A stretch of 64,000 nucleotides of DNA from a virus: positions 1 to 64,000 of the IMG/VR virus record IMGVR_UViG_3300043548_000091; one strand, 5' to 3'. A program made the position numbers and the translations under genes. Below, one piece after another: positions 38,279 to 60,699 of this stretch (positions are counted from its first letter, which is position 1; each line of letters begins with the position of its first letter). The notes under the pieces are model-generated. The model saw nothing but the letters and a program-made list of their open reading frames with translations. It had not been told where the DNA came from and ran no database searches.

Positions 38279-38944
38279 TCAATGTTTCGGATTAAATTCA
38301 CAACCAGTCACCTGACACCAGCGGCACAGGGGGGTCTGGTTAGGGTTCCACACGCCAGTCTCGTGGCACTGTTCGATGCGGGCCGTGCGCTCGCGGTATT
38401 TCCACCACGCCTGATCCTTCTGGTCGCGCTCCATCTGCATCTTCACCATCGAGTTCTTGACGATGAACATCAGCGCCGAGTTGACCTTGCGGATGTGCGG
38501 GTAGTGCTCGAAGACCATGATCGACATCAGCACCAACTGGTCCCGGTCGGGGTACTTGTCGTTGCCCGTCTTGTAGTCCACCACCCACGCCGTGAGGTTC
38601 TCGTCGTCAAGGATCAAGAGGTCGGCGATGCCGCGCACCCACACGTTGGGGGCAAACCAATCGACAGGCTTGAGGTCTGCATCCAGCGCCATCTGCTGCT
38701 CGGCCAGCTTGCGCCCGGGCTTCTTGATCAGCGCGTCGGCGATCTCCTTGAACTGCGAGTGCTCAGGCGGTAGCGGCTTGCCGTCACGAACGTACAACTC
38801 CAACGACTCGTGGACCTGATTGCCGTAGCGCGTTGCCTCGGTCTCTTGGAACGGGTAGTTCTTGAGCACCTTGACCTCGTGATACCGCCGCTGGCAGCCC
38901 TCGAAGTCTTTCAAGGAGGAGTGTGACCAAGCTGTTTTTTTCAT
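38279..38944 (-). CDS. PD-(D/E)XK exonuclease, Cas4/RecB-like
   Basis: 221 residues, start in ATGA overlap with the preceding gene's stop. SHSSLKDFEGCQRRYH (C17), GNQVHESLE (H45), GIADLLI (D108) and VVDYKTGN (D123, K125) give the PD-(D/E)XK nuclease core. Four Cys near the C-terminus (EQCHETG, LCRWCQVTGCEF) with C17 could hold an iron-sulfur cluster as in Cas4/AddB. Likely DNA end resection in replication or recombination. Confidence 0.83.
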   Translation of the reverse strand: MKKTAWSHSSLKDFEGCQRRYHEVKVLKNYPFQETEATRYGNQVHESLELYVRDGKPLPPEHSQFKEIADALIKKPGRKLAEQQMALDADLKPVDWFAPNVWVRGIADLLILDDENLTAWVVDYKTGNDKYPDRDQLVLMSIMVFEHYPHIRKVNSALMFIVKNSMVKMQMERDQKDQAWWKYRERTARIEQCHETGVWNPNQTPLCRWCQVTGCEFNPKH

Positions 38945-39132
38945 GCGCTTTTGGAAAGGAGTTGCAGGGCTTCTTCTCTGGTTTCGGCGTACAGGGTATC
39001 CACAGCCCACTCGTCGTGCAGGCGCGAAAAGTGCCACGCAGTGCCGTCACGCACCACATGCCACCCAGCGTACTCGGCCAGCATGGCGATGGCGTCGTCG
39101 TCCCACTCAGAACTTGGCGCTGTGGATTGCAT
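38941..39132 (-). CDS. 63-residue small protein
   Basis: ATG 39132, AGAGG nine bases upstream, inside the end of the metallopeptidase gene; a start at 39162 is possible. MQSTAPSSEWDDDAIAMLAEYAGWHVVRDG, then DTLYAETREEALQLL. Its stop couples to the nuclease. Unknown; small alpha/beta fold. Confidence 0.55.
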   Translation of the reverse strand: MQSTAPSSEWDDDAIAMLAEYAGWHVVRDGTAWHFSRLHDEWAVDTLYAETREEALQLLSKSA

Positions 39133-39406
39133 CGTTGAGCCTCTTGGAGAACTTCTCGACAAACTCTTCGTTGGGGGCCAGCGGGTGCTTCATGTCATGC
39201 AGGATGGCGTGGGTCAACTCGTGCCAGAAGGTGTGCGCCATGACGCGCTTGGACACGGGCTTGTCAGTGTAGGGCTCACGCTTGGACACGTAGATGCGGG
39301 CGCTCTCGTAGTTGATGCCGCCGTAGTGGTGGCGGTTGATGGCGTACATGGGCGTTAGCACGGTGTACTTGGTGCGCCCCACCTTGATTTGTTTTGGTAT
39401 CTCCAT
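39107..39406 (-). CDS. small HExxH metallopeptidase-like protein
   Basis: 99 residues, TAAGGAGAAGCA leader. WHELTHAILHDM (H62, E63, H66) is a canonical zinc site, preceded by a beta-rich N-terminus (IKVGRTKYTVLTPM). The third ligand may be a later Glu (NEEF). Similar short proteins occur in phage early regions, perhaps cleaving a host factor, as for IrrE/SprT-like peptidases; target unknown. Confidence 0.75.
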   Translation of the reverse strand: MEIPKQIKVGRTKYTVLTPMYAINRHHYGGINYESARIYVSKREPYTDKPVSKRVMAHTFWHELTHAILHDMKHPLAPNEEFVEKFSKRLNDAIHSAKF

Positions 39407-39415
39407 TGCTTCTCC

Positions 39416-41386
39416 TTAGTTCTTGGCTAGGCCATATCGGCGGTGTGCGCCACCGTCAGCGGCCAGAGGTATCCCCGGCATGTAACTCGGCTCCATGGTC
39501 ATTCGCGCCAAGACCCAAGTCTTAGCGTCGGCGACCTCTTCATCAGGCACAACTGCAATCAGTTCGTCATGCACTGTGCCTGCTATGGGGTACTTCTTGT
39601 TCACCCGTAGCATCCCATCCGTCATCACGATCCGCGCCGTGCCCTGCACCACGTTGTTCGTGATCTTCCCCGGGTACAGCTTGGTCTCGTCCGCACCGTA
39701 CACCCACTGCAACTGCTTAGTGTCTTTGTCCTTGACTTGCCGCAGGTTCGGGTACAGGAGCCGCATGCCGTTGGGCAATACGATCTCCTCCTTTTTGAAG
39801 GTGAGGCATTTATACACGACCTCTTCGCCGCCGACAAGGCTCTTCAACAGAAGCTGCCCCATCAGTTCCCAGAAGGCCACCACGGGCCACGCCGTGGCGC
39901 GGTAGATGTCGATGATCCGCTTGGCCGCCACGCAGTGCGTGAGCAACTCCTCGTCAGTGCAGGTGTGCGGGATGTCCAGCATCTTCTGCACGTTCTCCTC
40001 CTTGGACAGGAAGCGCTCGACGTACTCGCGGTTCACCCCCAGCTTTTGTGCAAACGGCTTGTCGTAGCGCACGGGCGGGGCCCCGAGGAAGCCAACGAGA
40101 AGCTGCGCGGCAAAGCTCGCCCAGCCAAGGCCGTACCCGCACCCGAGCAACGCGCTCTTGGCCGACTGCCGCAGGTCTGGGTGGGTCTCCTTGGTCATGC
40201 CCGGGATGCCGAACATCTGCGCGCCGAACTGGGCGTAGGCATCCTGCCCCGACTTGAAGATGTTAAGAAGTTCGTCGTAGTCGGCCAGCCATGCCAGCAC
40301 CCGGGGCTCGATCTGGGACAGGTCGCCCACCACCAACTGGTGCCCCTCGGGGGCCATGATCGCCTTGCGCAGGAACGAGCCGCGCTTCAAGTTCTGCATG
40401 TTGATGGCGCTCCCCTTGGAGGCGGTCCACCGCCCGGACAGCGCGCCGTAGTAGGACAGCGGCACGGGCAGCTTGCCGCGCCGGGAGATGTCTAGGAATC
40501 GCTGGGCCCGGGTTCGCTCGGTTGTGGACTTAACCTTGAGCCGCGCCTCGCATAGGAGCGCCACGTCCTCGTTGGACCCGTTAAGTAGTGCCTGAAAGAG
40601 GGCGTCGTTTTTCGCCAGCGCAAGGGTCTTCTTGCCAGTTGTCCGACTAATCTTTGTAGGCGGCTCAACCCCAAGCGCGTGGAGCGCTTGTGCAAACTTT
40701 GGGTTCGACGCCAGAACAGCCTCGTCCACGCCGAGCTTTTGTAAGAGTCCTTCACGTTTCGTCTTCTCCTCAACAAGGGCGTTCTCCAGCATGTCGGAGT
40801 CAAGCTCCAGCAGCGGGCGGGTGTACATCTTGAGCGTCATGTCGATCAGGCGTAGCTCGCTCTTGGGGTAGCCCGCGCTCAGTCGCTTGAATATTTCTTC
40901 ACATAGAAAGACATCGTGCTTGCAGTACTCCGCAAGTTCTCCCTCAATCTGATGATCCAGTTCACTGAGTCCATCAGTACTGTGTACGGCTCGCCCTTTT
41001 TCGGGAAGACCAAAATCTCCTGCGAGTTTGGCAAGGGAATTGCCAACCTCCACGCCGCGTAAAGCTCGCGCCATTGATAGCGTGTCGAAGATGAATGCTG
41101 GTACAACCCCGTAGTGCCACCCCAATATGGAAACGTCGAATTGGGCGTTATGCGCAAGGACGGCGGTTCGTCCCCAGTCGATTCCAGAAACGTACTCAGG
41201 TATGTCATCTCCTCGAACCCATCGAATGGGGTCAGCGCTTCCAAACTCGTGTACGCAGAAACCGAATGCCTTGAATCGGGGATCACGGATGTACTCCTCA
41301 GTGGTCAGCTTCGACAGGGTGTAGTCCGCCTTCGACCAGCGCGTCTCGAAGTCAATCGCTAGGATGCGGTCAAACGGTGCACTCAA
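39416..41386 (-). CDS. family A DNA polymerase with 3'-5' exonuclease
   Basis: 656 residues from TTG 41386, GGGAG upstream and overlap with the previous stop. Exo I LAIDFETRW (D12, E14), Exo II LAHNAQFDVSILG, Exo III YCKHDVF. Polymerase motif A VVGDLSQIEPRVLAW (D355), motif B RQSAKSALLGCGYGLG, motif C GTVHDELIAVV (H606-D607-E608). Compact, like other phage PolA proteins without the 5' nuclease. The replicative polymerase; primase and helicase are at 30211-33153. Confidence 0.95.
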   Translation of the reverse strand: MSAPFDRILAIDFETRWSKADYTLSKLTTEEYIRDPRFKAFGFCVHEFGSADPIRWVRGDDIPEYVSGIDWGRTAVLAHNAQFDVSILGWHYGVVPAFIFDTLSMARALRGVEVGNSLAKLAGDFGLPEKGRAVHSTDGLSELDHQIEGELAEYCKHDVFLCEEIFKRLSAGYPKSELRLIDMTLKMYTRPLLELDSDMLENALVEEKTKREGLLQKLGVDEAVLASNPKFAQALHALGVEPPTKISRTTGKKTLALAKNDALFQALLNGSNEDVALLCEARLKVKSTTERTRAQRFLDISRRGKLPVPLSYYGALSGRWTASKGSAINMQNLKRGSFLRKAIMAPEGHQLVVGDLSQIEPRVLAWLADYDELLNIFKSGQDAYAQFGAQMFGIPGMTKETHPDLRQSAKSALLGCGYGLGWASFAAQLLVGFLGAPPVRYDKPFAQKLGVNREYVERFLSKEENVQKMLDIPHTCTDEELLTHCVAAKRIIDIYRATAWPVVAFWELMGQLLLKSLVGGEEVVYKCLTFKKEEIVLPNGMRLLYPNLRQVKDKDTKQLQWVYGADETKLYPGKITNNVVQGTARIVMTDGMLRVNKKYPIAGTVHDELIAVVPDEEVADAKTWVLARMTMEPSYMPGIPLAADGGAHRRYGLAKN

Positions 41387-48171: not shown

Positions 48172-48509
48172 GGTTGGTTCTCCTTTGGTATTGACGTGGG
48201 GTCCCACTCGGATGGGTGGAACAACTCCCTGTGGTCGGCGTTGCGCCGCGTGAACTCGAACTCCCCCACCCCATACTGCATAGCCCACAGGTGGGCCATG
48301 TTCTCTAGGATGGTGGCGTGGTCGTGGTTGTAGTCGTGATGATCAGAGCGCGCCAGCAGGAACGTGCGCTTGGACTTGATACCCGTGTACCCACAGACCG
48401 AGAGCACGATCCACGCCTTTTGCTTCCAGACCGAACCGCGCAGGACGATCTCGCCCTTGCGATTCAGGCACAACGGATGCAGCGGCTTGATGAACCGGAG
48501 GTTGTTCAC
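48168..48509 (-). CDS. small protein between MoxR and VWA genes
   Basis: 113 residues from a GTG overlapping the ATPase stop (GTGA). Beta-rich N-terminus (VNNLRFIKPLHPLCLNRKG, GSVWKQKAWIVLSVCGY), then HHDYNHDHATILENM and a Trp-containing end. His/Asp cluster could bind metal. Its stop overlaps the VWA start, so all three are translated together. Confidence 0.6.
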   Translation of the reverse strand: MNNLRFIKPLHPLCLNRKGEIVLRGSVWKQKAWIVLSVCGYTGIKSKRTFLLARSDHHDYNHDHATILENMAHLWAMQYGVGEFEFTRRNADHRELFHPSEWDPTSIPKENQP

Positions 48510-49633
48510 TTGGTGCTGAAGAAAATCTTGTGAGCAGCCAGCATCTTGCCGAAGTTGGCCAGCGTCACATAGATGGCAGTGCGCGAGGACTGCGCCACTG
48601 TGTTGCAGAAGATCGACTGAATCTCTGCCTTCATGCGCCACACATACTCGACGATCTTCTCTGCGTCCTCGCGGTTGTCACAGCGGGAGACGAACTGGAA
48701 AATCTGCACAAGCTGTGCGGTGGGGTTGTCAGACAGCGGCGCAGTGGCAGGGTCCTTGAGCACGCGGTCATACGAGCAGATGTCACGACCGAAGCGAACG
48801 AACGCCGACAGGTTCTGCGCTGCCACCTCACCGATAGCGCCAGCGATAGCCGACTCCAACGTGTCGTCGTCGAGCACGCCATCACCCTCCTGCAAGATGT
48901 CCGACGCTGCCACAAGGGAGCGAGGCGTGACGTAGGCCGTGGCAGTCGAGCGAGGGTTGAAGATCATGCCGTTGTCCTTGGACAAGTCCTTGCCCTCGAA
49001 CTTGCCGCCCTTCTCGTAGTCGAGGAACGAATCAAAGATTTGCGGGTAGCTGTTGGCAAAGGCGATGATCGACGCGTTGAGACCGCGCGGGATGGCGAAG
49101 TTGTTGACCCACTCCTCCATGGTGGGCTTGCGCATCTTGACGAAAACCAAACGATTCCTGAGATGCGCCTGAATCGAATCGCCCAGACCCTCGATGGCGA
49201 GGTTGGTAAAGCACACCACAGTGCTGCCCTCGGGCATGTGGAAGTTGCCGACACGACGCTCGTAGACGACGGGAGCCAGCACGTTCTTGATGAACTGCGG
49301 AGCCTTGGCAATCTCATCGAGACCCACGAGGATCGGCTTGCTGCCGTTGACCCCGAGTTGGTTGTGCTTGCTCACACCGAAGCGCTCGTTGGGTAGCTCA
49401 CGCGAGACGCCGTTCTCAGTGTCGAGGCAAGGCATCCACACCGAGCCATCAGAGAGTTGCGTGCAGTCAACCGGATCGACAGCGATGTGGTCAGCGAACT
49501 TGGGGCTCGCCTTGAGGGCGTGGAACAGCGCGGTCTTGCCGATGCCGTTCTCACCCTCGACGATGATGGTGCGCTTGTGGCCCACAGCGGCGATGAGGGC
49601 GACGACTTGGGAAAAGGAAAGAAGTTTTGACAT
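48506..49633 (-). CDS. MoxR-type AAA+ ATPase
   Basis: 375 residues from ATG 49633 (CGGAG upstream; in-frame 49651 less likely). Walker A VEGENGIGKT (27-34), Walker B ILVGLDEIA (D106, E107), and a second region with VVCFTNLAIEGLG (sensor 1), NRLVFVKMRKP and TPRSLVAASDIL (sensor 2 area). MoxR ATPases usually activate VWA proteins or remodel complexes; the VWA gene is two genes downstream. Promoter and palindrome lie in its 5' leader. Confidence 0.87.
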   Translation of the reverse strand: MSKLLSFSQVVALIAAVGHKRTIIVEGENGIGKTALFHALKASPKFADHIAVDPVDCTQLSDGSVWMPCLDTENGVSRELPNERFGVSKHNQLGVNGSKPILVGLDEIAKAPQFIKNVLAPVVYERRVGNFHMPEGSTVVCFTNLAIEGLGDSIQAHLRNRLVFVKMRKPTMEEWVNNFAIPRGLNASIIAFANSYPQIFDSFLDYEKGGKFEGKDLSKDNGMIFNPRSTATAYVTPRSLVAASDILQEGDGVLDDDTLESAIAGAIGEVAAQNLSAFVRFGRDICSYDRVLKDPATAPLSDNPTAQLVQIFQFVSRCDNREDAEKIVEYVWRMKAEIQSIFCNTVAQSSRTAIYVTLANFGKMLAAHKIFFSTK

Positions 49634-49666: not shown

Positions 49667-49689
49667 GTTGCGGACACAGTGTCCGCAAC
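49667..49689. repeat. palindrome copy 1 (core GCGGACA-N3-TGTCCGC)
   Basis: Perfect 11-base arms (GTTGCGGACAC and GTGTCCGCAAC) around a single A. On the - strand it starts 14 bases downstream of the candidate -10 at 49703, so it would lie at the start of the MoxR transcript. Operator or leader hairpin. Confidence 0.75.
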
Positions 49690-49702
49690 TTGTTGTGGTG
49701 TC

Positions 49703-49731
49703 AGTATAGCTGTGTGTCTAGTGTTGGACAA
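49703..49731 (-). promoter_or_regulatory. candidate promoter for the MoxR operon
   Basis: On the - strand TTGTCC (49731-49726), a 17-base spacer and TATACT (49708-49703), a good sigma-70 match. It lies in the 112-base gap upstream of the ATPase gene, directly before palindrome copy 1. Confidence 0.6.
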
Positions 49732-49745
49732 CTCCTTTCTGTGGG

Positions 49746-50705
49746 TTACTGAGTGTGGATATTGCTTAGAACTAATTGTTCACGGCGAGGGAATTGCGGG
49801 TACTCCGTGTACCCATTGGTTCGATCTAACACCAGCGCCTGCTGCACCTTGGCCCATACCGCCTGAATCAGTTGCGCCTCAGTGATCGGCGCGATGTCGT
49901 CGTACGTGGGGTCTTGGCGGTTGCCCCACTGCAAGAAGCCCTTCTCCACCGCACGTCGGCTGGCGATGCTGTCGAACACTGACTCGGCCAAGTCCATGAA
50001 GGTCTCGACCTCACCCTCTGCGGGCTGGATGCCAAGCACGAGGGAGTTGTGCAGGTCGCGCAGCGTGTCCACTTGCGGCGTGTAGAGGTTGATCCCCCGG
50101 AAGATTTGCCCCGTCGAGCGGTCGAACGCCACGCGCTCAACGAACTGCGGTATCTGCATGGCTGCCAGCGTGAACAGCGGGTCGAACAGCTTGCGTGCCT
50201 CGGCCCGTGCCTTCTTGTCCTCGGGGCTGCTGACCTTGCGATAGATGCGCGTGTGCCGGGACTTACCCACCATGAGGGCGTTGCCCGGCGTGAACCATGC
50301 TTGGACAGAGAAGGGCATGCCCGGCTCGATAGCGCGGGTTGTGACCGGCATGATCACCTCCTCGCCACTGGTGGTGCGCACACGGCAGATGTCACTGACA
50401 CCCAGCACGTCCCACATGAACCCCTTGCTGGTCTGCGAGCCGTCGCCTTGGTACTCACGCAACTCGTTGCCCTCGGCGTCGGGCTTGTGAAAGCGCGCCA
50501 TCACTGTGCTGTACAGCACGAGGTCGTATGACTCGCCGTTGTCATTCTTTTCTATGCGGTAGTGGTACGAGCTTGTGTCCTTGAGTGGGCGCTGGCTGCT
50601 GTGCCACTTGCGCGAACGTGGGGGCAGCTTGGTCTTCTCGAAGTAGGCGTGTGCCTGTGCGTAGTTGTGGATGCTGGGCAGCACCCAAGTTTTTCCTGCA
50701 AACAT
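49746..50705 (-). CDS. 319-residue early protein of unknown function
   Basis: AAGGAGAACCAACT leader. MFAGKTWVLPSIHNYAQAHAYFEKTKLPPRSRKW, a beta-rich middle (YDLVLYSTVMARFHKP) and a helical C-terminus (DPLFTLAAMQIPQFVERVAFD, TLRDLHNSLVLG). No enzymatic motif is recognised. It lies just upstream of the MoxR operon, so it may belong to the same process. Probably soluble. Confidence 0.6.
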   Translation of the reverse strand: MFAGKTWVLPSIHNYAQAHAYFEKTKLPPRSRKWHSSQRPLKDTSSYHYRIEKNDNGESYDLVLYSTVMARFHKPDAEGNELREYQGDGSQTSKGFMWDVLGVSDICRVRTTSGEEVIMPVTTRAIEPGMPFSVQAWFTPGNALMVGKSRHTRIYRKVSSPEDKKARAEARKLFDPLFTLAAMQIPQFVERVAFDRSTGQIFRGINLYTPQVDTLRDLHNSLVLGIQPAEGEVETFMDLAESVFDSIASRRAVEKGFLQWGNRQDPTYDDIAPITEAQLIQAVWAKVQQALVLDRTNGYTEYPQFPRREQLVLSNIHTQ

Positions 50706-50731
50706 AGTTGGTTCTCCTTCACTGGTTGGGG

Positions 50732-51385
50732 TTAAACAATCTTGCCGTTCTCATCGAAGCGCCACTCGTTGGCCTCGGCCATCTCGACGAAGTAGTCGTA
50801 GCTGATCTCGTACTCGTACTCGGACAGGATGCGGTCGTACAGTTCGTCGGCGTACTTGCGCGCCTCGTTTGCCAGCCATATCTCCAGCATGTCGAGCAGG
50901 GACTCGTAGTCGATGGCCTCCAGCAGCGCACGCACGCTGGCACCTTGCAGTGGGCTGTCCACGTCGATCGTGACGTGGTGCCCGATGTCACACGCATCGA
51001 CCGAGGCGAGTGGGTCTATCTCCATGATCCCGGAGTTCACCGAGCGCCAGCCCTTGTAGCTGACCAGCGCCGTCATATCGCCCCACCCATCACGGCACAA
51101 CTCGCGCACGATCATGTACTGCGGCTGCTGCGGGTGGTCGTCCTTCATGTGGTAGTCGAGGAACTCGGGGATTCTTATGAGGCCCGCCCATGCAGCGCCA
51201 TCGCTTTGCGAGAAGCCCAGTGACCAGCGCACATCCTCGATCTCGAAGCCGCGCTCCACGCCCTGCTCCTTGAAGTCGTCGATCGCCCAGTCAGGGGAGA
51301 AGTCCATGTTTGCCTGCCAGTCGAGCATTGCTCTGTCTTTGGCTTGGTTGGATAGCTCGTCGAAGGTGTAGGTTTTGTCGGTCAT
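50732..51385 (-). CDS. 217-residue acidic early protein
   Basis: TAGGAGACAGC before the ATG. TYTFDELSNQAKDRAMLDWQANMDFSPDW and a strongly acidic C-terminus (YADELYDRILSEYEYEISYDYF). The TFDELS-x-QAKDRA opening is seen in other phage early proteins of unknown role. Net negative charge might mimic DNA, which is only speculation. Confidence 0.65.
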   Translation of the reverse strand: MTDKTYTFDELSNQAKDRAMLDWQANMDFSPDWAIDDFKEQGVERGFEIEDVRWSLGFSQSDGAAWAGLIRIPEFLDYHMKDDHPQQPQYMIVRELCRDGWGDMTALVSYKGWRSVNSGIMEIDPLASVDACDIGHHVTIDVDSPLQGASVRALLEAIDYESLLDMLEIWLANEARKYADELYDRILSEYEYEISYDYFVEMAEANEWRFDENGKIV

Positions 51386-51393
51386 GCTGTCTC

Positions 51394-51669
51394 CTAGTTG
51401 GCGGTGTCGTTGTCACGCATGGTTTGCAGCGTGAGGTACTTGTCGAGCGTCTCCTGCGAGATGAGCTTGATGCTGGGGATGTGGCGCTTGACCTCGAACG
51501 GCAAGAACTTGGCGTCGTACTGGCAGTCGGTGCCGTAGAAGCCTTTGTCCTTTCCCTTCCACTCGGTCTCCACGACAACAGCCCCGGCCAGCGCCTTGAG
51601 TAGCTTGTCGATCTGTGCGGGGGTCAGCCACATCTCGTTGTTGTTGATGTTCAGTGCAAATTTAGCCAT
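51394..51669 (-). CDS. 91-residue early protein
   Basis: AAGGAGAACCAACC leader before ATG 51669. MAKFALNINNNEMWLTPAQIDKLLKAL is followed by a beta hairpin and an acidic-helical end. The longer frame to 51846 is the translation of the small membrane gene's neighbourhood and is not supported. Unknown. Confidence 0.65.
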   Translation of the reverse strand: MAKFALNINNNEMWLTPAQIDKLLKALAGAVVVETEWKGKDKGFYGTDCQYDAKFLPFEVKRHIPSIKLISQETLDKYLTLQTMRDNDTAN

Positions 51670-51706
51670 GGTTGGTTCTCCTTGAGGTTGCGGTTGATGG
51701 TCGGCG

Positions 51707-51862
51707 CTATGCGCGCCAGAGGAACACGTCGAGCAGGACGACGATGATTGCGGCTGCGTAGGCGAAGGGCAGTGCATATGCGGACAAAGTGTCCGCAAGT
51801 TGTTGCCTCCACGAGTAAAGCCGAATAGGTTTCGCAATAGTTTCACGCTTGGCCTTTCTCAC
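51707..51862 (-). CDS. 51-residue membrane protein carrying palindrome copy 2
   Basis: GTG start at 51862 overlapping the upstream stop (GTGA). MRKAKRETIAKPIRLYSWRQQ is basic, then LADTLSAYALPFAYAAAII, VVLLDVFLWRA with one membrane helix (about 30-49). The palindrome GCGGACA-N3-TGTCCGC codes for the LADTLSA part. The overlap suggests it is translated; the palindrome makes it odd. Confidence 0.55.
   Translation of the reverse strand: MRKAKRETIAKPIRLYSWRQQLADTLSAYALPFAYAAAIIVVLLDVFLWRA
51779..51797. repeat. palindrome copy 2
   Basis: TGCGGACA (51779-51786), AAG, TGTCCGCA (51790-51797). It is inside the small membrane gene. Flanked by CAAC on one side as in copies 1 and 4. Confidence 0.75.
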
Positions 51863-52401
51863 ACGCTGATCTCCACAGTGGCCGTCGCATTCTGAAGCAG
51901 GTTGTTGACCTCGTCGGACAGGTGCTCGCCCAAGTAGTCGCCGACCATCTCCCCCACAGCGTCGCGGTCGAGTGCGTTGCGCTCAAGGTCTTCCACGTCT
52001 GACGACAGGCGGTCCAGCGTGCGGTCGTAGTCGTCGTACTGCTCATGGTCGTAGCTGCGCTCGTGGTCGTCCATGCGCTGGTTGATTAGCTCGATGATCT
52101 TGTCCGTGGTTGTCTCGTCGAGCAAGCGCATCGTGGCTGCGTTCTCCACAAGTGCGGCAAAGCGCTGCTCCACCATGCGGTTGATGATCGGCATCAACCC
52201 ACCCATCAGCGCCATGGCCAGCGTGGTCACATCGTCTGCGGGGGTTAGGGTTTTCTGCTCGGGTGTGGGAGCGGGTGTGGGAGCGGGGGCAGGGGTGGGG
52301 GTGAGGTTCATGGCTTGGTTCTCCTGTGCTTGGGCGTCTGCTTCGATCAGCGCTGCGATCTCGGCGGGGTTGGTGGTGATGGTTACGTTGATGTCGTTCA
52401 T
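51859..52401 (-). CDS. 180-residue early protein with Pro/Thr linker
   Basis: ATG 52401 with leader AAGGAGAAACCAACC. MNDINVTITTNPAEIAALIEADAQAQ, a Pro-Thr linker (TPTPAPAPTPAPTPEQ), a hydrophobic patch (TTLAMALMGGLMPIINRM) and an acidic helical domain (MDDHERSYDHEQYDDYDRTLDRLSSDVEDLER). A start at 52530, coupled in ATGA with the upstream gene, would add 43 residues in frame; both could be made. Unknown. Confidence 0.65.
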   Translation of the reverse strand: MNDINVTITTNPAEIAALIEADAQAQENQAMNLTPTPAPAPTPAPTPEQKTLTPADDVTTLAMALMGGLMPIINRMVEQRFAALVENAATMRLLDETTTDKIIELINQRMDDHERSYDHEQYDDYDRTLDRLSSDVEDLERNALDRDAVGEMVGDYLGEHLSDEVNNLLQNATATVEISV

Positions 52402-52526
52402 GGTTGGTTTCTCCTTCAAGGTTAAAAGTGCCAAGCGCACCATGCGCCGGGCATCGGGTTTGCTGGCGAACCAGCGGGATAGTGGACGAGAGTCGTCCTG
52501 TAACAGGCCCGGGGGCCATCCGGTTT

Positions 52527-52793
52527 TCATGTAAAGAACTCGTCGATCAACTGTCCGGCTACCTGCACCCCCTCGCTGTCGTAAGCGCCGAACTTGCTGT
52601 ACTGGTTGAGGATGTCAGCGATGGCTGGCACTGCCTCGTCCTTCGGTGGGTTGTTGTTCAGGATGTTCTCGATCTTCTCGTTCATCTCGAACGCAGCCAT
52701 GTCTCGCTTCGGGTCATCGTCATCCCCGTACAGTTGCCAGTCATTGGCGGTCAGTCCGATGCGAATCTTCTTGGTGATGTACACGTTTCTCAT
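52527..52793 (-). CDS. 88-residue acidic early protein
   Basis: ATG 52793 overlaps the upstream stop (ATGA). Product MRNVYITKKIRIGLTANDWQLYGDDDDPKRDMAAF, then a helix-rich half ending VAGQLIDEFFT. Unknown function; the stop couples to a frame that continues into the next gene. Confidence 0.65.
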   Translation of the reverse strand: MRNVYITKKIRIGLTANDWQLYGDDDDPKRDMAAFEMNEKIENILNNNPPKDEAVPAIADILNQYSKFGAYDSEGVQVAGQLIDEFFT

Positions 52794-53143
52794 TTGAGTT
52801 CCTCCGGGATTTCAACTTCGTCGCCCAGTTGCGACATGACGTAGCAGCGCATGGCTGCGATGAGTTGCGGCCTGCCTTTCTGGTTGTAGGGCACAGACAC
52901 TTCACACACGGACGACCCCTCGACACGCGTGGCGATCCACTGCACCGCGACTCGGTACTCCAGTTGAATGCACTCGCGCTCGATGATCGGCCCGCCTTGC
53001 GCCCAGTTGGACGATGGCGACCACCCGTTTTCTGTCCATCGGGTTTCTAGCTGCCCCTTGACCAGACTAACTTCTTCGTTCTCACACTTCGCCACCGCCC
53101 AGTCGAGGGCGGCTCCGGTTAGGTCTACTGTTTTGATTTTCAC
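52790..53143 (-). CDS. DUF2591-like phage protein
   Basis: 117 residues from GTG 53143 after AAGGAGAACCAAC. MKIKTVDLTGAALDWAVAKCE and SNWAQGGPIIERECIQLEY, then a VEIPEELK end, are characteristic of DUF2591 (small protein family of tailed phages). No enzymatic role is known. Palindrome copy 3 and a hairpin lie just upstream. Confidence 0.82.
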   Translation of the reverse strand: MKIKTVDLTGAALDWAVAKCENEEVSLVKGQLETRWTENGWSPSSNWAQGGPIIERECIQLEYRVAVQWIATRVEGSSVCEVSVPYNQKGRPQLIAAMRCYVMSQLGDEVEIPEELK

Positions 53144-53161
53144 GTTGGTTCTCCTTGGTTT

Positions 53162-53183
53162 GCCGGGATGGAACCGTCCCGGC
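53162..53183. repeat. small hairpin next to palindrome copy 3
   Basis: GCCGGGA (53162-53168) and TCCCGGC (53177-53183) with 8 bases between, in the 5' leader of the DUF2591 gene. Stable, GC-rich; could occlude or expose the ribosome site. Confidence 0.4.
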
Positions 53184-53190
53184 GGCGGCT

Positions 53191-53209
53191 TGCGGACAAA
53201 ATGTCCGCG
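53191..53209. repeat. palindrome copy 3
   Basis: GCGGACA (53192-53198), AAA, TGTCCGC (53202-53208). It sits 10 bases after the stop of the upstream gene at 53219 and about 50 bases before the DUF2591 start. Confidence 0.7.
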
Positions 53210-53218
53210 AGTTCGCGG

Positions 53219-54217
53219 TTAAAAGCTCGACCAGTCGTCGTCGGCTGAACTGGTTTGGCGGGAAGAAGGAAGCATGACCGTTCCCTTTTCTTCTTTCGTC
53301 ATCTCGACTGACTGGTCGGCTTTTATTTCAGTCAAGGGCTTGGCTGTGCTGGCATTCTTGTGGGGGGACTGCTCCCATAGCAGGGGCATGCGCGAGCGAT
53401 ACCCGCCCTGCATCCACGACCCGGCCCGGTGCAGCCGGGCGAGGTTGTCCTTCTCGTCCTGCGTGAGCAGTTCAAACCACAGTCCTTGCGGCTCGGCAGG
53501 GATGCGCTCACGCAGCGTGCCGTCCTCGATATATTGGTCAAGGCGCTGGCGAGTTAGGCGCAGCAAGGCTTCGCGCTTGACGTAGTAGTCGCCATCCTCG
53601 TCGGTCTTGAAGGCGAACGAGCGGGTGTTGGTGGTCGTATCGACGAACGCCGTGTGCTTCTTGAACACCTTGGCCACAGTCTCCAGCCCGTTGGTGATGG
53701 AGGTGCGGTAGGCCCCGATCAGGGTCGGCGCTTCCCTTTTCGCCGCCTTGCGCTTGGCGCGCCGCGCGTTGGAGAGTCGGCAGGCGTCGCACAGCTTGTG
53801 CGTGATGAGTTGTGAGGTGTCCTCGGCCCACCCGTTGCGTCGTTTCTGGGCGAGCGTGGGCTTGGCCTTGAAGACCTCTTCGAGCTTCTCCTCGTAGCAC
53901 TTGGCGCACACCCGGTGTCCGTCCTTGAAGACCTTGGGCAGGGGTCGGCGCTTGCCTTCCGGTAAGTACCAGCCATGGGTCTGCGCCGCCTTTACCAGCA
54001 GCTTGTGCACCTTGTCGCCTCGGAACTCATCCACGCCACGATGGGCCAGCAGGTGCACTGCGTCGAGGGTGTCCTTGAATGAGCGGTAGCGTGGCGTGTC
54101 GCTGCTACCCGTGAGGCCCTTGCGAAGTTCGGCTTCTATTTGTGTCAACGACCAAGGCATGGCGAGTGCCCACGGGCGGGGCTTGAACTCGGGGTAGGTC
54201 AGTTTGCGTCCAGTCAT
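53219..54217 (-). CDS. 332-residue zinc-ribbon early protein
   Basis: AGGAG before the ATG. Basic N-terminus (MTGRKLTYPEFKPRPWALAMPWSL), two Cys pairs (VCAKCYEEK and LCDACRL) for one zinc ribbon, a long basic helix (ARRAKRKAAKRE), and a beta/helix half (RLTRQRLDQYIEDGTL). It ends in an acidic DDDWSSF tip after an internal in-frame ATG (53275) with AAGGGAACGGTC upstream, the same leader as inside the 45165-46067 gene. Nucleic-acid-binding role likely; family unknown. Confidence 0.65.
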   Translation of the reverse strand: MTGRKLTYPEFKPRPWALAMPWSLTQIEAELRKGLTGSSDTPRYRSFKDTLDAVHLLAHRGVDEFRGDKVHKLLVKAAQTHGWYLPEGKRRPLPKVFKDGHRVCAKCYEEKLEEVFKAKPTLAQKRRNGWAEDTSQLITHKLCDACRLSNARRAKRKAAKREAPTLIGAYRTSITNGLETVAKVFKKHTAFVDTTTNTRSFAFKTDEDGDYYVKREALLRLTRQRLDQYIEDGTLRERIPAEPQGLWFELLTQDEKDNLARLHRAGSWMQGGYRSRMPLLWEQSPHKNASTAKPLTEIKADQSVEMTKEEKGTVMLPSSRQTSSADDDWSSF

Positions 54218-54259
54218 TCGGTGCTCCTAGAGGGTTGGTGAGTGAAATACACGCCCGAT

Positions 54260-54287
54260 TGTCCACTAGTGTCCACGTGATGTCCAC
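54260..54287. repeat. three phased TGTCCAC iterons
   Basis: TGTCCAC at 54260-54266, 54270-54276 and 54281-54287, same orientation, spaced 10 and 11 bases, that is one DNA turn apart. Flanking CCCGA (54254) and TCGGG (54291) are roughly symmetric. Pattern typical of protein-binding iterons. Confidence 0.6.
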
Positions 54288-54600
54288 TAATTCGGGAGTG
54301 AAGGGTGGGCTCGGGGGCCGCATGAATACTGGGGTTCGGGGCATTCGACACCAATAAAGAAGGTTTTGGCATACAACTAACCCCGCTGGATAGGGGAGGA
54401 CGAAGACGAGTCAACCCACAAGAATATTTGCTTACTCATATATTTACTCCCCTTTCTATATATATAAGTAATTCTGTAAATGTGTATATATTGGTGTCGA
54501 AAGTGGACAGCGTGAGGATTGGCGCGGGTTGCGGGCCTACGCTTCGCTTCCGAATTAGTGGGTATGCGCCGGACAAAAGGCTGTGCAACTTGTTGTGGAG

Positions 54601-54627
54601 AACTGGCGGACATGGTGTCCGCCAGTT
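54601..54627. repeat. palindrome copy 4 (longest)
   Basis: AACTGGCGGACA (54601-54612), TGG, TGTCCGCCAGTT (54616-54627): 12-base perfect arms. It lies 10 bases after the stop of the gene at 54637-54846. Confidence 0.8.
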
Positions 54628-54636
54628 GCCTTGTGC

Positions 54637-54846
54637 CTACCGGAACAGCTTGCCTTGCTTGAGGGGGCGCACGTATTGAATGAACTCACTCCATTCTTGG
54701 TCGCGTGCCTTTGCCTCTTCGAGGATGCGCTGCTTGTTGGCTCGGTCGGCAGCGATGCGGACGTAGTCTTCGCGTAACTCAACCAGTCGTGCCAGTGAGG
54801 CGGGCTTGATTGACTTGTGGATGGCGTAGCGGTTGGTCTTGGACAT
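54637..54846 (-). CDS. 69-residue helical early protein
   Basis: AAGGAGCCCCC before the ATG. MSKTNRYAIHKSIKPASLARLVELREDY, then charged helices (RANKQRILEEAKARDQEWSEF). Basic then acidic, all-helical; no family. First of four genes just left of the control region's early promoter. Confidence 0.65.
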   Translation of the reverse strand: MSKTNRYAIHKSIKPASLARLVELREDYVRIAADRANKQRILEEAKARDQEWSEFIQYVRPLKQGKLFR

Positions 54847-54855
54847 GGGGGCTCC

Positions 54856-54930
54856 TTACTTGATGATGATGGCAACGCAGGTGAAGAACAGGAGGAGGAA
54901 CAGGCAAGCGCCAGCGGAGATGTGTTTCAT
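54856..54930 (-). CDS. 24-residue hydrophobic micro-protein
   Basis: AAAGGAG before the ATG at 54930. The product is one hydrophobic helix (SAGACLFLLLFFTCVAIII) with a Lys end. A short membrane peptide near the left edge of the regulatory region could act as a toxin-like or signalling element, but only position and the ribosome site support it. Confidence 0.5.
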   Translation of the reverse strand: MKHISAGACLFLLLFFTCVAIIIK

Positions 54931-54942
54931 GGGTTACTCCTT

Positions 54943-55113
54943 TCAGTGGTTGTCGTACAGGGCGATCTGGGTTTCGCCGCGCCACAGTTCTACGCGGCGG
55001 TAGGCTGCGGTCAGGGCGTTGAACAGGGTGTAGGCGTCGTACTCGGTTCGGGCGAAGAACTCCTGATCGAGACCGGCGTTGTGGATGCGAAGGGTGAAGG
55101 GGAGGGATTTCAT
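54943..55113 (-). CDS. 56-residue early protein
   Basis: ATG 55113 after TAGGAGTTCCAACC, a variant of the common leader; longer in-frame starts reach 55206 without support. MKSLPFTLRIHNAGLDQEFFA and a Trp/Arg-rich end (VELWRGETQIALYDNH). Small beta fold, unknown. Confidence 0.6.
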   Translation of the reverse strand: MKSLPFTLRIHNAGLDQEFFARTEYDAYTLFNALTAAYRRVELWRGETQIALYDNH

Positions 55114-55187
55114 GGTTGGAACTCCTAGGTTGGACAGGGAAAGAAACAGCGGCCCGGGCTCCCCCGTGCGCCGCCACGAAAAAACTC

Positions 55188-55204
55188 GCGGACAAGTTGT
55201 CCGC
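55188..55204 (-). terminator. palindrome copy 5 with T-run (terminator-like)
   Basis: GCGGACA (55188-55194), AGT, TGTCCGC (55198-55204). On the - strand the stem extends to about 10 pairs (counting one G-T) and is followed by TTTTTT (55185-55180). Unlike the other copies this one has the form of a rho-independent terminator for the gene at 55221-55604. Confidence 0.65.
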
Positions 55205-55220: not shown

Positions 55221-55604
55221 CTACTGAGCAGCGAGCTTGGACTTGAAGCTGCGCTTCTGACCCGCCGTGAGCTTGGCGAAGTCAGCCAGCAACTTCTCCA
55301 CGGGATCGGCTGCGCGGGCTGCGTTGATCTTGGGCTGCTTGGCGGGCAGGTCAGCCTTGGGGAAGCACACCTGAAGCACGCGGTTCATGGCTCGCTCGGC
55401 TGCGCTGTCACGCGGCAGCATCAGGCCACGCTGACCCTCCGTGATCTTGGCCCCGTACTTCTTGCTGGCCCACTCCATGGCAAGTGGCCGAGCGGTGGCC
55501 CGGTCGCCTACACCTAGTGCGAGCAGTTGCTGAGCGAAATCCAGTTGCGCGCCGTCAACGGCAGCGAAGACAGCGAAGACGGCGGCTTTGTTGAAGGTAG
55601 ACAT
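55221..55604 (-). CDS. 127-residue early protein, first gene of the leftward operon
   Basis: ATG 55604 with GGAG upstream. MSTFNKAAVFAVFAAVDGAQLDFAQQLLALG then basic helical segments (WASKKYGAKITEGQRGLMLPRDS, KLTAGQKRSFKSKLAAQ). First product expected after the promoter at 55682. Possibly a host-takeover protein; no family recognised. Confidence 0.65.
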   Translation of the reverse strand: MSTFNKAAVFAVFAAVDGAQLDFAQQLLALGVGDRATARPLAMEWASKKYGAKITEGQRGLMLPRDSAAERAMNRVLQVCFPKADLPAKQPKINAARAADPVEKLLADFAKLTAGQKRSFKSKLAAQ

Positions 55605-55617
55605 GAGTTGAATCTCC

Positions 55618-55646
55618 AAAAGAAAAGCCCAGCGAACTGGCCGGGC
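55618..55646 (-). terminator. leader hairpin with T-run (attenuator-like)
   Basis: GCCC..GGGC and two inner pairs at 55627-55646 form a 7-pair stem (one G-T) with a 6-base loop, followed on the - strand by TTTTC. It lies between the candidate promoter and the first early gene, so early transcripts must pass it. Terminator, attenuator or antitermination site. Confidence 0.6.
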
Positions 55647-55935: not shown

Positions 55936-55965
55936 AAAAAAGCCCCCGGCTGTTACACCGGGGGC
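55936..55965 (-). terminator. strong leftward terminator upstream of the packaging genes
   Basis: GCCCCCGG (55942-55949) and CCGGGGGC (55958-55965) with an 8-base loop. On the - strand the stem is followed by six T (55941-55936). It faces leftward transcription from the late side, though genes to its right are on the + strand: an insulator against antisense transcripts entering the early region. Confidence 0.75.
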
Positions 55966-58227: not shown

Positions 58228-60699
58228 ATGGCTACCAACATCGACAAGGCACTGTTTCAATCCCCCGTTGGCATAGCCGACGATGCCGAAGGCATCGAAC
58301 CGATTGAAATCGAGATCGTGGACCCGGAGGCAGTGCACATCGAGGCAGGCGATTTGGAGATCGACATCGAGAAAAAAGCGCCCTCCGTCGAAGACTTTGA
58401 CGCCAACCTTGCCGAGTTCCTAGACGAAGGCGCGATCCAGACGATGGCCAGTGATCTGGCCAGTGACATCGACAACGACAAGAACTCACGCAAGGAGTGG
58501 GAGAAGGCGTATGTCACGGGGTTGAAACTGCTGGGGCTGCAAATTGAGGAGCGCACGGAGCCGTGGGACGGCGCGTCGGGCGTGTTCCATCCGATGCTCA
58601 CCGAGGCGGTGGTGAAGTTCCAGAGCGAGACGATCACCGAGACGTTCCCTGCGCAGGGGCCCGTGAAGACCAAGATCGTGGGCAAGCAGACCCCGGCCAA
58701 GCAGGAAGTGGCAGTGCGCGTCCAAGAGGACATGAACTACCAGTTGACCGAGAAGATGCAGGAGTTCCGCCCGGAGCACGAGCGGATGCTGTGGTCGCTG
58801 CCTGCCACCGGCAGCGCGTTCAAGAAGGTCTACTACGATCCGAACCTTGGCCGTCAGGTGTCGATGTTCATCCCGGCAGAGGACATCCTGCTGCCGTATG
58901 GCACGTCGGACATCATGACGTGCTACCGCGTATCGCACGTGATGCGCAAGACCGAGAACGACATCAAGAAGCTGCAAGCGGCAGGCTTTTATCGCGACTG
59001 CGACATCGGCACGCCCGACAAGCACATCGACGCGATCAACCAAGCCAAGGACAAGGAGACGGGGTTCGCCGACCTTAACGACGATCGGTTCACGCTGATC
59101 GAGTCGCACGTGGACCTGTGCATCAAGGAAGACCCGCTGTGCATCCGCGACGAGGATGGTGAGCCCGCAGGCATTGCGCTGCCGTACGTGGTGACATTCA
59201 TCCGTGGCACGAACACCGTGCTGGCCATCCGCAGGAACTGGAAAGAAGACGACGAACTGCACTTGAAGCGCCAGCACTTCGTCCACTACCAATACATCCC
59301 CGGCTTCGGTGCCTACGGCTTTGGCCTGTTCCATCTGATCGGCGGCTTCGCCAACTCGGCTACCAGCCTGATGCGTCAACTGATCGACGCTGGCACCCTG
59401 AGCAACCTGCCCGGGGGCTTGAAGAGTCGCGGATTAAGAATTAAAGGAGATGACACTCCGATCGCCCCGGGTGAGTTCCGTGATGTGGACATCGGCTCTG
59501 GCGCGCTGCGCGACAACATCCTGCCGCTCCCGTACAAGGAGCCTAGCGCCACGCTGTACAACCTGCTCAACACCGTGGTCGAGGAAGGCCGCAGGTTTGC
59601 GGCCACGGCAGACGTGAAGGTGGCGGACATGTCCGCGCAGGCACCGGTGGGCACGACGCTGGCCCTGCTGGAGCGACAACTCAAAGTCCTCACCGCCGTC
59701 CAAGCGCGGGTGCACTACGCGCTCAAGCAAGAGTTGCAGCTTCTCAAAGGCATCATCCGTGACTACACGGACGACGAGTACAGCTACGAGCCTGACGCGG
59801 ACAAGGACGAGGGCGACATGCGCCGCGTCAAGAAGTCGGACTACGACATCGTCGAGGTGATCCCGGTCTCGGACCCCAACGCAGCAACCATGAGCCAGCG
59901 GCTGGTGCAGTACCAAGCCGTCATTCAGCTTTCTCAGACTGCGCCGGACATCTACAACCTGCCGCAGCTTCATCGCGGGATGCTTGAAGTCCTCGGGATC
60001 AAAAATGCCGACAAGCTCATCCCGCTGCCCGAGGACCAGAAACCGAAGGACCCGGTCACCGAGAACATGAACGTGCTCAAGGGCGAGCCGCTCAAGGCGT
60101 TCCAGTATCAGGACCACGAGTCGCACATCCGGGTGCACATGTCGGCCATGCAGGACCCGATCGTGATGCAGTTGATCGGACAGAACCCCCGCGCTGGGCA
60201 GATTCAGGCAGCCATGATGGCGCACATCGCCGAGCACGTGGGCTTTGGCTATCGCCAAAAGATCGAGCAGCAGTTGGGTATGCCCCTGCCGCCGCAAGAC
60301 GAGAAGCTGCCTCCGCAGATGGAGTTGGCCCTCTCGCAGATGATGGCGCAGGCCGCGCAGCAGGTCCTCCAGCAGAACCAAGCCGCAGCCGCCCAGCAGC
60401 AAGCACAGCAGCAGGCGCAGGACCCGGTCTTGCAGATGCAGCAGCAAGAACTTCAAATCCGCGCCCAAGAAGTGGCGATCAAGGACAAGAAGGTCGCAGC
60501 AGATGCCGCCGCCAAGGCAGACGAATTGGCGCTCAAGGAAAAGCAACTCCAGATCGACGCAGCCTTCAAGGCTGACAAGCTCGAAGCCGACCAAGAACGA
60601 GACGGTGTCCGCATGGGCATCGACATCGCCAAGAGCAAGGCGCAAGCCGCGCAATCCCGTGCGAAAGCACAACAACCCGGAGGTAATCGCAACCAATGA
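58228..60699 (+). CDS. portal protein
   Basis: 823 residues, AAGGATAAAAG before the ATG. EWEKAYVTGLKLLGLQIEERTEPWDGASGVFHPMLTEAVVKFQSE and GTPDKHIDAINQAKD belong to the portal family of large podovirus-type portals. FHLIGGFANSATSLMRQLIDAGTLSNLPGG is the crown/wing part. A long Gln/Ala coiled C-terminus (about 700-820) is a barrel-like extension. It precedes a GroES-like gene, scaffold and capsid. Confidence 0.9.
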   Translation: MATNIDKALFQSPVGIADDAEGIEPIEIEIVDPEAVHIEAGDLEIDIEKKAPSVEDFDANLAEFLDEGAIQTMASDLASDIDNDKNSRKEWEKAYVTGLKLLGLQIEERTEPWDGASGVFHPMLTEAVVKFQSETITETFPAQGPVKTKIVGKQTPAKQEVAVRVQEDMNYQLTEKMQEFRPEHERMLWSLPATGSAFKKVYYDPNLGRQVSMFIPAEDILLPYGTSDIMTCYRVSHVMRKTENDIKKLQAAGFYRDCDIGTPDKHIDAINQAKDKETGFADLNDDRFTLIESHVDLCIKEDPLCIRDEDGEPAGIALPYVVTFIRGTNTVLAIRRNWKEDDELHLKRQHFVHYQYIPGFGAYGFGLFHLIGGFANSATSLMRQLIDAGTLSNLPGGLKSRGLRIKGDDTPIAPGEFRDVDIGSGALRDNILPLPYKEPSATLYNLLNTVVEEGRRFAATADVKVADMSAQAPVGTTLALLERQLKVLTAVQARVHYALKQELQLLKGIIRDYTDDEYSYEPDADKDEGDMRRVKKSDYDIVEVIPVSDPNAATMSQRLVQYQAVIQLSQTAPDIYNLPQLHRGMLEVLGIKNADKLIPLPEDQKPKDPVTENMNVLKGEPLKAFQYQDHESHIRVHMSAMQDPIVMQLIGQNPRAGQIQAAMMAHIAEHVGFGYRQKIEQQLGMPLPPQDEKLPPQMELALSQMMAQAAQQVLQQNQAAAAQQQAQQQAQDPVLQMQQQELQIRAQEVAIKDKKVAADAAAKADELALKEKQLQIDAAFKADKLEADQERDGVRMGIDIAKSKAQAAQSRAKAQQPGGNRNQ

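Follow-up and report, generated by a model that had tools for sequence, protein, structure and literature searches.

Early-operon palindromes that covary with the first early gene in a group of related phages: candidate operators of a phage-encoded regulator

Five exact copies of the palindrome GCGGACA-N3-TGTCCGC are present in the leftward early operon of a freshwater phage genome (IMG/VR record IMGVR_UViG_3300043548_000091), of which positions 1 to 64,000 have been analysed here; "the window" denotes this whole stretch of 64,000 nucleotides (nt). Among relatives of this phage, the arms of the palindrome change from class to class, and one domain of the protein encoded by the first gene of the operon changes with them. 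Pairing of the palindrome with this gene is very likely. With a probability of roughly 0.6, we regard the copies as operators of an autoregulating dimeric DNA-binding protein with fast-diverging specificity, at which stoperator-like repression or roadblock would occur at the DNA level. The original prediction, made from the sequence of the window, had proposed the binding site of one dimeric protein or a mobile terminator or hairpin; this interpretation is partly supported, and the finding extends further than the window by itself could show. The principal features are as follows.

55221-55604, minus strand: proposed regulator gene, 127 amino acids (aa), variable N-terminal domain and conserved C-terminal tail; proposed from covariation, no known family
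55188-55204, no strand: palindrome copy 5, 16 nt 3' of the regulator stop; terminator-like, TTTTTT on the minus strand
54606-54622, no strand: palindrome copy 4, extended symmetry spanning 54601-54627
53192-53208, no strand: palindrome copy 3, in the gap separating a 332-aa gene from a NinX-like gene
51780-51796, no strand: palindrome copy 2, within a putative 51-aa open reading frame (ORF)
49670-49686, no strand: palindrome copy 1, in the ATPase gene leader
48506-49633, minus strand: ATPase gene (phrog_1297), the anchor for finding relatives

The five copies are genuine: all of them match the palindrome exactly, and their number greatly exceeds chance expectation. A scan of the window with the 17-mer gave no further site with one or two mismatches and nine with exactly three, so that sites with up to three mismatches numbered 14, compared with a mean of 6.12 and a maximum of 12 in 100 shuffles. 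When palindromes with 6-base arms and gaps of 0-8 were collected, the GCGGACA family had five copies, and the maximum for any family in five block shuffles was two. The complete source record of 65,619 bases has the same five copies, all of them in one 5.6-kb stretch of the leftward early operon; leftward genes extend from about 30 kb to 55.6 kb, and terminase, portal and other virion genes are rightward. As had been predicted, each copy lies soon after a stop codon or in a leader (16, 14, 10, 62 and 59 nt from the preceding stop for copies 5 to 1), and copy 1 is also 36 nt 5' of the ATPase start codon. The small membrane gene assigned to copy 2 corresponds to an ORF at 51707-51862 on the minus strand, which does cover the copy and is itself putative. 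The flanks AACT and AGTT noted at first are complete in copy 4 and represent the commonest flank in relatives, and they are partial in the other copies. A spacer-less version of the palindrome, GCGGACATGTCCGC, is found at 59623-59636 in the portal gene and may be a chance occurrence or a weak extra site.

For comparison, loci encoding the ATPase protein were collected from relatives (the best 80 of 138, with 72-100% identity). Only a minority of them have GCGGACA arms. Nevertheless, all 44 loci whose sequence extends 6 kb or more upstream of the ATPase gene were found to have a repeated palindrome of their own, by exact 6-base arms in at least two copies in 43 of them and, in L134, only with one mismatch allowed. 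The original prediction had taken a lack of conservation in relatives as a sign against it; most relatives do lack this arm sequence, but they carry another in the same arrangement. In all, 13 arm sequences occur at similar gaps: besides that of the window, GGGAACA-N3, ATGGACA-N3, AGGTGCA-N3, GTGAGAC-N5/6, GCTGACA-N3, ACAGACA-N3, GCAGACA-N3, GTGGTCA-N2, GTGGAGA-N2, AGTATCA-N3, GGGTTA-N4 and, as the thirteenth, GTGCGAC-N5 of L134, with six copies arranged as in the other relatives. A further one, CCGACA-N3 in L253-L255, was left unclassed. Sites are found repeatedly within or ahead of the regulator gene, shortly 3' of its stop and in gaps further downstream, and the regulator gene of many relatives holds an in-frame copy.

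Of the 80 loci, 54 were assigned by hand to 12 classes, giving 55 genomes together with the window; the 26 unclassed loci are 25 with less than 5 kb upstream and L134, which is outside all covariation tests. L150, L151 and L156 were classed from one site each, and L156, which also has a class-E site, is probably mislabelled. The 55 genomes contain 199 exact own-class sites, 130 of which are located over 100 bp past the regulator gene, and none was found beyond the ATPase start in 386 kb. The arms are constant within one genome while the spacers vary, and in copy 3 of the nearest relative (contig 3300008110_000047) both arms are kept with the spacer AAA in place of GGT. Since the arms are identical within a genome, a trans-acting reader is needed. 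Five class-A relatives have in common an extra copy with a 4-base spacer (L181 -1810, L184 -1799, L193 -1813, L194 -1817 and L201 -1816, relative to the ATPase start). Foreign-class sites stand beside the own set in L203 (-2748), L158 (-2468 and -47) and L161 (-2975) and are possibly relics of recombination.

The 17-mer was also searched in IMG/VR, and at least 120 stretches were found, several with two to five copies. Because single matches in so large a collection are, by a rough estimate, mostly due to chance, weight was given to multi-copy contigs. In three possibly unrelated contigs, L005 (4123, 4703), L034 (4639, 5185) and L035 (3934, 4495), the 17-bp palindrome forms the spacer of sigma-70-like promoters (TTGCAC- or TTCACA..TATAAT-like), two per contig, which is a classic operator position. 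Single copies beside an A- or T-run in AT-rich contigs (35-37% GC; L006, L016, L027, L031, L038, L049, L055, L062 and L070) resemble ordinary terminators.

The evidence that connects the palindrome with the first early gene is covariation. Ten gene clusters that lie within 8 kb and are represented across classes were tested against palindrome class by partial correlations that control for three conserved genes, near-identical genomes having been removed. Cluster 10 alone, which is the first operon gene (55221-55604 in the window), covaries with class beyond overall relatedness, with a partial r of 0.64 (0/999 permutations) for the whole gene and 0.62 after removal of the palindrome-coded stretch and everything before it. 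The effect resides in the N-terminal part (0.65, 0/999), and the C-terminal part does not follow class (0.03, 311/999), nor do the nine other clusters (-0.28 to 0.10). A second test, in which the few-site genomes L150, L151, L156, L202, L211, L138, L139 and L136 were excluded and 29 of 40 genomes were left after removing near-identical ones, gave 0.66 (0/1999) for the N-terminal part, -0.03 for the C-terminal part and -0.27 to 0.13 for the nine others, the closest being clusters 5 (0.13, 102/1999) and 6 (0.10, 140/1999). When arm mismatch was used in place of class, the value for the N-terminal domain was 0.36 (1/999).

Two simpler comparisons point in the same direction. Among genome pairs whose ATPases are 90-97% identical, identity of the N-terminal domain is 83% for the 29 pairs of one class and 24% for the 28 pairs of different classes, although the pairs are not independent. 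On quick trees constructed without a mixture model for 38 genomes (37 in one tree), the N-domain tree needed 11 class changes, which is as few as 12 classes allow, and the trees of six other genes needed 13-15; the cluster 11 tree, with 31 genomes, had 10 changes. The site-and-reader part of the original prediction is well supported by these results, together with the constant arms, the variable spacers and the presence of other arms at similar places in relatives.

The protein itself belongs to no known family. The 127-aa protein of the window matches nothing at E ≤1 in Pfam or PHROGs, and four relatives of other regulator types gave weak matches only, under cut-offs where cut-offs exist. The best E value in a PDB sequence search was 0.16, and tblastn against 50,697 phage records gave nothing at E 0.1. 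Two regulator alignments, A3 with 46 sequences and A2 with 10 sequences of classes B, E, I and J, have only the tail in common (46 columns, 98.1%). AlphaFold models of the window protein and of a second type both consist of three helices, a beta hairpin, a helix, a linker and two tail helices, the model of the window protein being of mediocre quality (predicted local distance difference test, pLDDT, 79.4; predicted template modelling score, pTM, 0.58). Foldseek found no match at E ≤0.001 in PDB for either model or in BFVD for the second type. The window model is weakly similar to winged-helix proteins (1t6s with Z 3.3, root mean square deviation 3.7 and 61 residues aligned; MarR and MntR proteins at E of about 1), and no winged-helix match is dominant for the second type.

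The same tail has been found in one named phage, Planktothrix phage Pag-Yong1 (OL906435, 65,014 bp). Its first early gene (38932-39495, minus strand) encodes a protein with the tail of the window regulator and an unrelated N-terminal part (hhalign E 1.5e-7, and 7.2e-9 using a profile built without Pag-Yong1). The genome has 37 sites of GGTTCAG-N-CTGAACC with up to two mismatches (17 exact, 16 with one and 4 with two), compared with 0 or 1 in five mononucleotide shuffles, and nine of them are 17-28 nt 5' of the start of the next leftward gene. Pag-Yong1 is like the window in a similar layout with ATPase and VWA genes as well as in the tail of the first early gene, and differs from it in the spacer of 1, in many more sites, some of them among structural genes (gene labels of the sites are valid only up to 50.6 kb), and in a second related gene. 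The latter (L288 32003-32842, minus strand), just upstream of the ATPase gene, encodes a protein 39% identical to the first early protein, including the tail region, and is possibly a second regulator. All genes concerned are annotated as hypothetical proteins. A search of named phages with the tail peptide gave no match and is regarded as insensitive because Pag-Yong1 was missed too. In DSL-LC04, HTVC027P and 023Pt_psg01, there was no tail match and no palindrome family of more than two copies, the same as in shuffles. Three records, OL906435, OQ594354 and PP438419 (Pag-Yong1, MinM2 and Pra-JY27), are all 65,014 bp long with an identical first early protein and different stated cyanobacterial hosts; a bacterium that accompanies the cyanobacteria may be the true host.

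We propose that the first early gene encodes a dimeric regulator for which the five palindromes serve as operators on DNA. Its variable N-terminal domain would read the 7-bp half-sites, and its conserved C-terminal tail presumably does an invariant job, either dimerisation or contact with the transcription machinery. The regulator would limit its own and downstream early transcription by acting as a roadblock to polymerase during elongation, in the manner of mycobacteriophage repressors bound to stoperators, and would also block initiation at the promoter above copy 1; early shut-off would be the outcome. A block of elongation appears most likely because sites are located after (in relatives often inside) the regulator gene and in several operon gaps, mostly off promoters. 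The spacing of the arms is consistent with this proposal. Exact-arm sites have a spacer of n, or of n+1 in three classes (38 and 5 sites in class A, 16 and 9 in E, 7 and 1 in F); spacer lengths range from 1 to 6 over the other classes; two classes have N2, and Pag-Yong1 has N1. Of 41 class-A sites, 17 have a Watson-Crick pair next to the core, compared with 17.8 in shuffles. A spacer of n or n+1 and the lack of covariation in the core-bounding pair are as expected for a DNA dimer.

Several observations weigh against this proposal. Elements of the -10 type are not enriched upstream of sites (7/120 vs 13.1 in shuffles), which speaks against promoter-associated operators in general. Pairs outside the core match above shuffles when sites are pooled (64/120 vs 40.3 for -1/+1, 70 vs 53 for -2/+2 and 70 vs 39.7 for -3/+3), which class make-up may explain, and pairs -2 and -3 have the same lean within class A (28/41 vs 23.6 and 22/41 vs 17.1). 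The predicted folds match nothing confidently: the window protein reaches a Z of 3.3 at best, and the second type reaches 5.0, with a designed protein, and has weak matches to KH (RNA-binding) domains, with Z up to 3.7. L203 pairs class-A arms with a class-H-like N-terminal domain (0.56 to L210), and exact foreign-class sites occur, five in the 55 genomes (in L158, L161, L203 and L156). Furthermore, the covariation test covers ten clusters, to the exclusion of rarer genes; clusters 0 and 3, of similar spread, were set aside as alternative-frame ORFs that overlap the ATPase and VWA genes internally.

Some of these points would also be expected if the same protein bound the palindromes as hairpins of early mRNA, near ribosome-binding sites or message ends, and controlled translation, RNA stability or termination. 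We consider this unlikely, while recognising that the lack of -10 enrichment, the KH-like matches, the excess of pooled outer pairs and the nine Pag-Yong1 sites shortly before start codons all fit it. In addition, all five window copies fold as RNA (z -2.5 to -5.1), and the 3' side of sites is T-rich on the sense strand: at least four T in +4..+9 are present in 46/120 sites vs 13/120 on the mirror side, and in 30/93 vs 13/93 when sites in or after the regulator are excluded. On the other hand, the restriction of the spacer to n or n+1, including N2 and N1, speaks against it since an RNA loop could vary more, and the core-bounding pair of class A shows no covariation.

A role in segregation or genome marking, with the sites serving as a centromere, replication or packaging signal for the first-gene protein (a ParB-like use) and not in gene control, is improbable, no search aimed at ParA or ParB having been made. 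Dispersed palindromes with a cognate protein and no promoter enrichment would suit such a role, but the sites are restricted to early gaps and the regulator gene, with none past the ATPase start, and a T-run often marks the site following the regulator's own stop (14 of 16 unique sites there). Still more improbable is that a host DNA-binding protein is the reader and that the first gene covaries for another cause, for example linkage to sites in or next to it. Sites 1 and 2 are in or beside the regulator gene, so that recombination could move both together; yet the 130 of 199 own-class sites further away are separated from the gene by clusters without covariation, and a host protein leaves 13 arm sequences in such close relatives unexplained.

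That the copies are simply intrinsic terminators, or a hairpin repeat that is mobile, is hardly tenable: copy 5, whose T-run noted at first is indeed on the transcribed strand (TTTTTT), and its counterparts are terminator-like, but the other four window copies have no T-run after the GC stem on the transcribed strand, terminators require no common arm sequence, and a mobile repeat (like repetitive extragenic palindromic elements) is contradicted by flanks that are not common to the copies and by recurrence at similar positions, among them in-frame positions within the regulator genes of many relatives. Over 120 unique sites, ACTY and RAGT are the commonest flanks (43-80% per position); the common flank fades about 4-8 bp out, and the window copies diverge past it. 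Hairpin promoters of the N4 virion RNA polymerase have a 7-bp stem and a 3-nt loop, and promoters of this type were set aside as less likely because relatives have spacers of 1, 2 and 4-6, at odds with a loop fixed at 3 nt; in the giant 2960-aa protein, considered in this connection, Pfam gave only LPD38.

Other features of the window are as follows.

49703-49731, minus strand: sigma-70-like promoter TTGTCC-17-TATACT above copy 1, a consensus match only (9/12), in agreement with the predicted promoter upstream of this copy
55627-55646, minus strand: hairpin followed by TTTTCTTTT in the regulator-gene leader, a possible attenuator
55942-55965, minus strand: strong terminator-like hairpin and TTTTTT, separating leftward early genes from the rightward terminase side
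21218-30100, plus strand: giant gene of 2960 aa with an LPD38 domain at residues 2668-2846, the only Pfam match; Pag-Yong1 has a gene annotated as "large polyvalent protein" (2.8 kaa)

Comparable repeats have been described. Stoperators of Cluster A mycobacteriophages (L5, Bxb1) are present in many copies per genome with genome-specific motifs, and distances between motifs correlate with those between repressors (PMC6550527). The present system is similar in that each genome has several short sites of its own, located for the most part in gaps, and in the joint divergence of the site motif and a phage-encoded protein. It differs in that Cluster A stoperators are asymmetric and orientated (PMC4351075, PMC6550527), whereas the sites here are palindromic and only the flanking T-rich side is asymmetric. 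Differences in the C-terminal part of the repressor matter too for site-reader co-divergence in Cluster A immunity (PMC6550527), whereas here only the N-terminal domain follows the sites. Cluster A repressors have an N-terminal helix-turn-helix and their phages have integration or partition genes; here the protein belongs to no known family, and an integrase was not found in 19 records.

The closest geometry is that of the 17-bp repeats TGTTCGG-N3-CCGAACA of Cluster O (Corndog), of which 34 copies are distributed genome-wide, many in gaps of a leftward operon; their authors suggested dimeric regulatory proteins and thought transcriptional regulation unlikely, and no cognate protein is named (PMC4351075). 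The window is like Corndog in the 7-3-7 geometry, the invariant arms, the variable centre and a lifestyle that is not obviously temperate, and unlike its genome-wide spread, the window copies are all within 5.6 kb. The Nostoc cyanophages A-1 and N-1 have 43 and 21 motifs, typically between ORFs, for which stoperators were one suggested possibility; these motifs are asymmetric and are not known to be linked to a protein (PMC4916379). Start-Associated Sequences of Cluster K resemble the sites here in their restriction to the non-structural half (PMC3203893) and, different from the sites here, are non-palindromic and typically 3-7 bp from start codons. No earlier report of this palindrome-regulator system was found in the literature searched, which was mostly without subscription journals and preprints.

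The phages look non-temperate. Tyrosine integrase (PF00589) and serine resolvase (PF00239) were found in 0 of 19 records of 49-67 kb (the window's own record and those of 18 relatives), which are possibly incomplete, and the search did not extend to partition genes. No relative of the ATPase emerged when the genomes of 84,980 species of bacteria and archaea were searched by pattern, a search that detects close relatives only. That specificity turns over so quickly suggests selection for escape from the regulator of a related phage in the same cell. By analogy with immunity in temperate phages, we tentatively suggest that in these phages without a detectable lysogenic cycle a resident regulator might silence a superinfecting phage of the same class, and its specificity would then diversify through selection for escape. 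The lineage would thus possess a private and quickly changing repressor-operator code, in which an exchangeable N-terminal domain that reads DNA is joined to a conserved tail; apparently lytic phages would then have superinfection immunity based on a repressor.

For repeats of unknown function like those of Corndog, described in phages with no obvious temperate lifestyle, a cognate protein has been lacking, and the covariation presented here names a candidate. This candidate family has no sequence match in Pfam, PHROGs or PDB and is accompanied by at least 13 natural arm sequences, most with matching proteins. The role of such repeats is now directly testable, and the relatives provide a natural set of orthogonal regulator-operator pairs. 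The results suggest that immunity-like diversification may extend beyond temperate phages.

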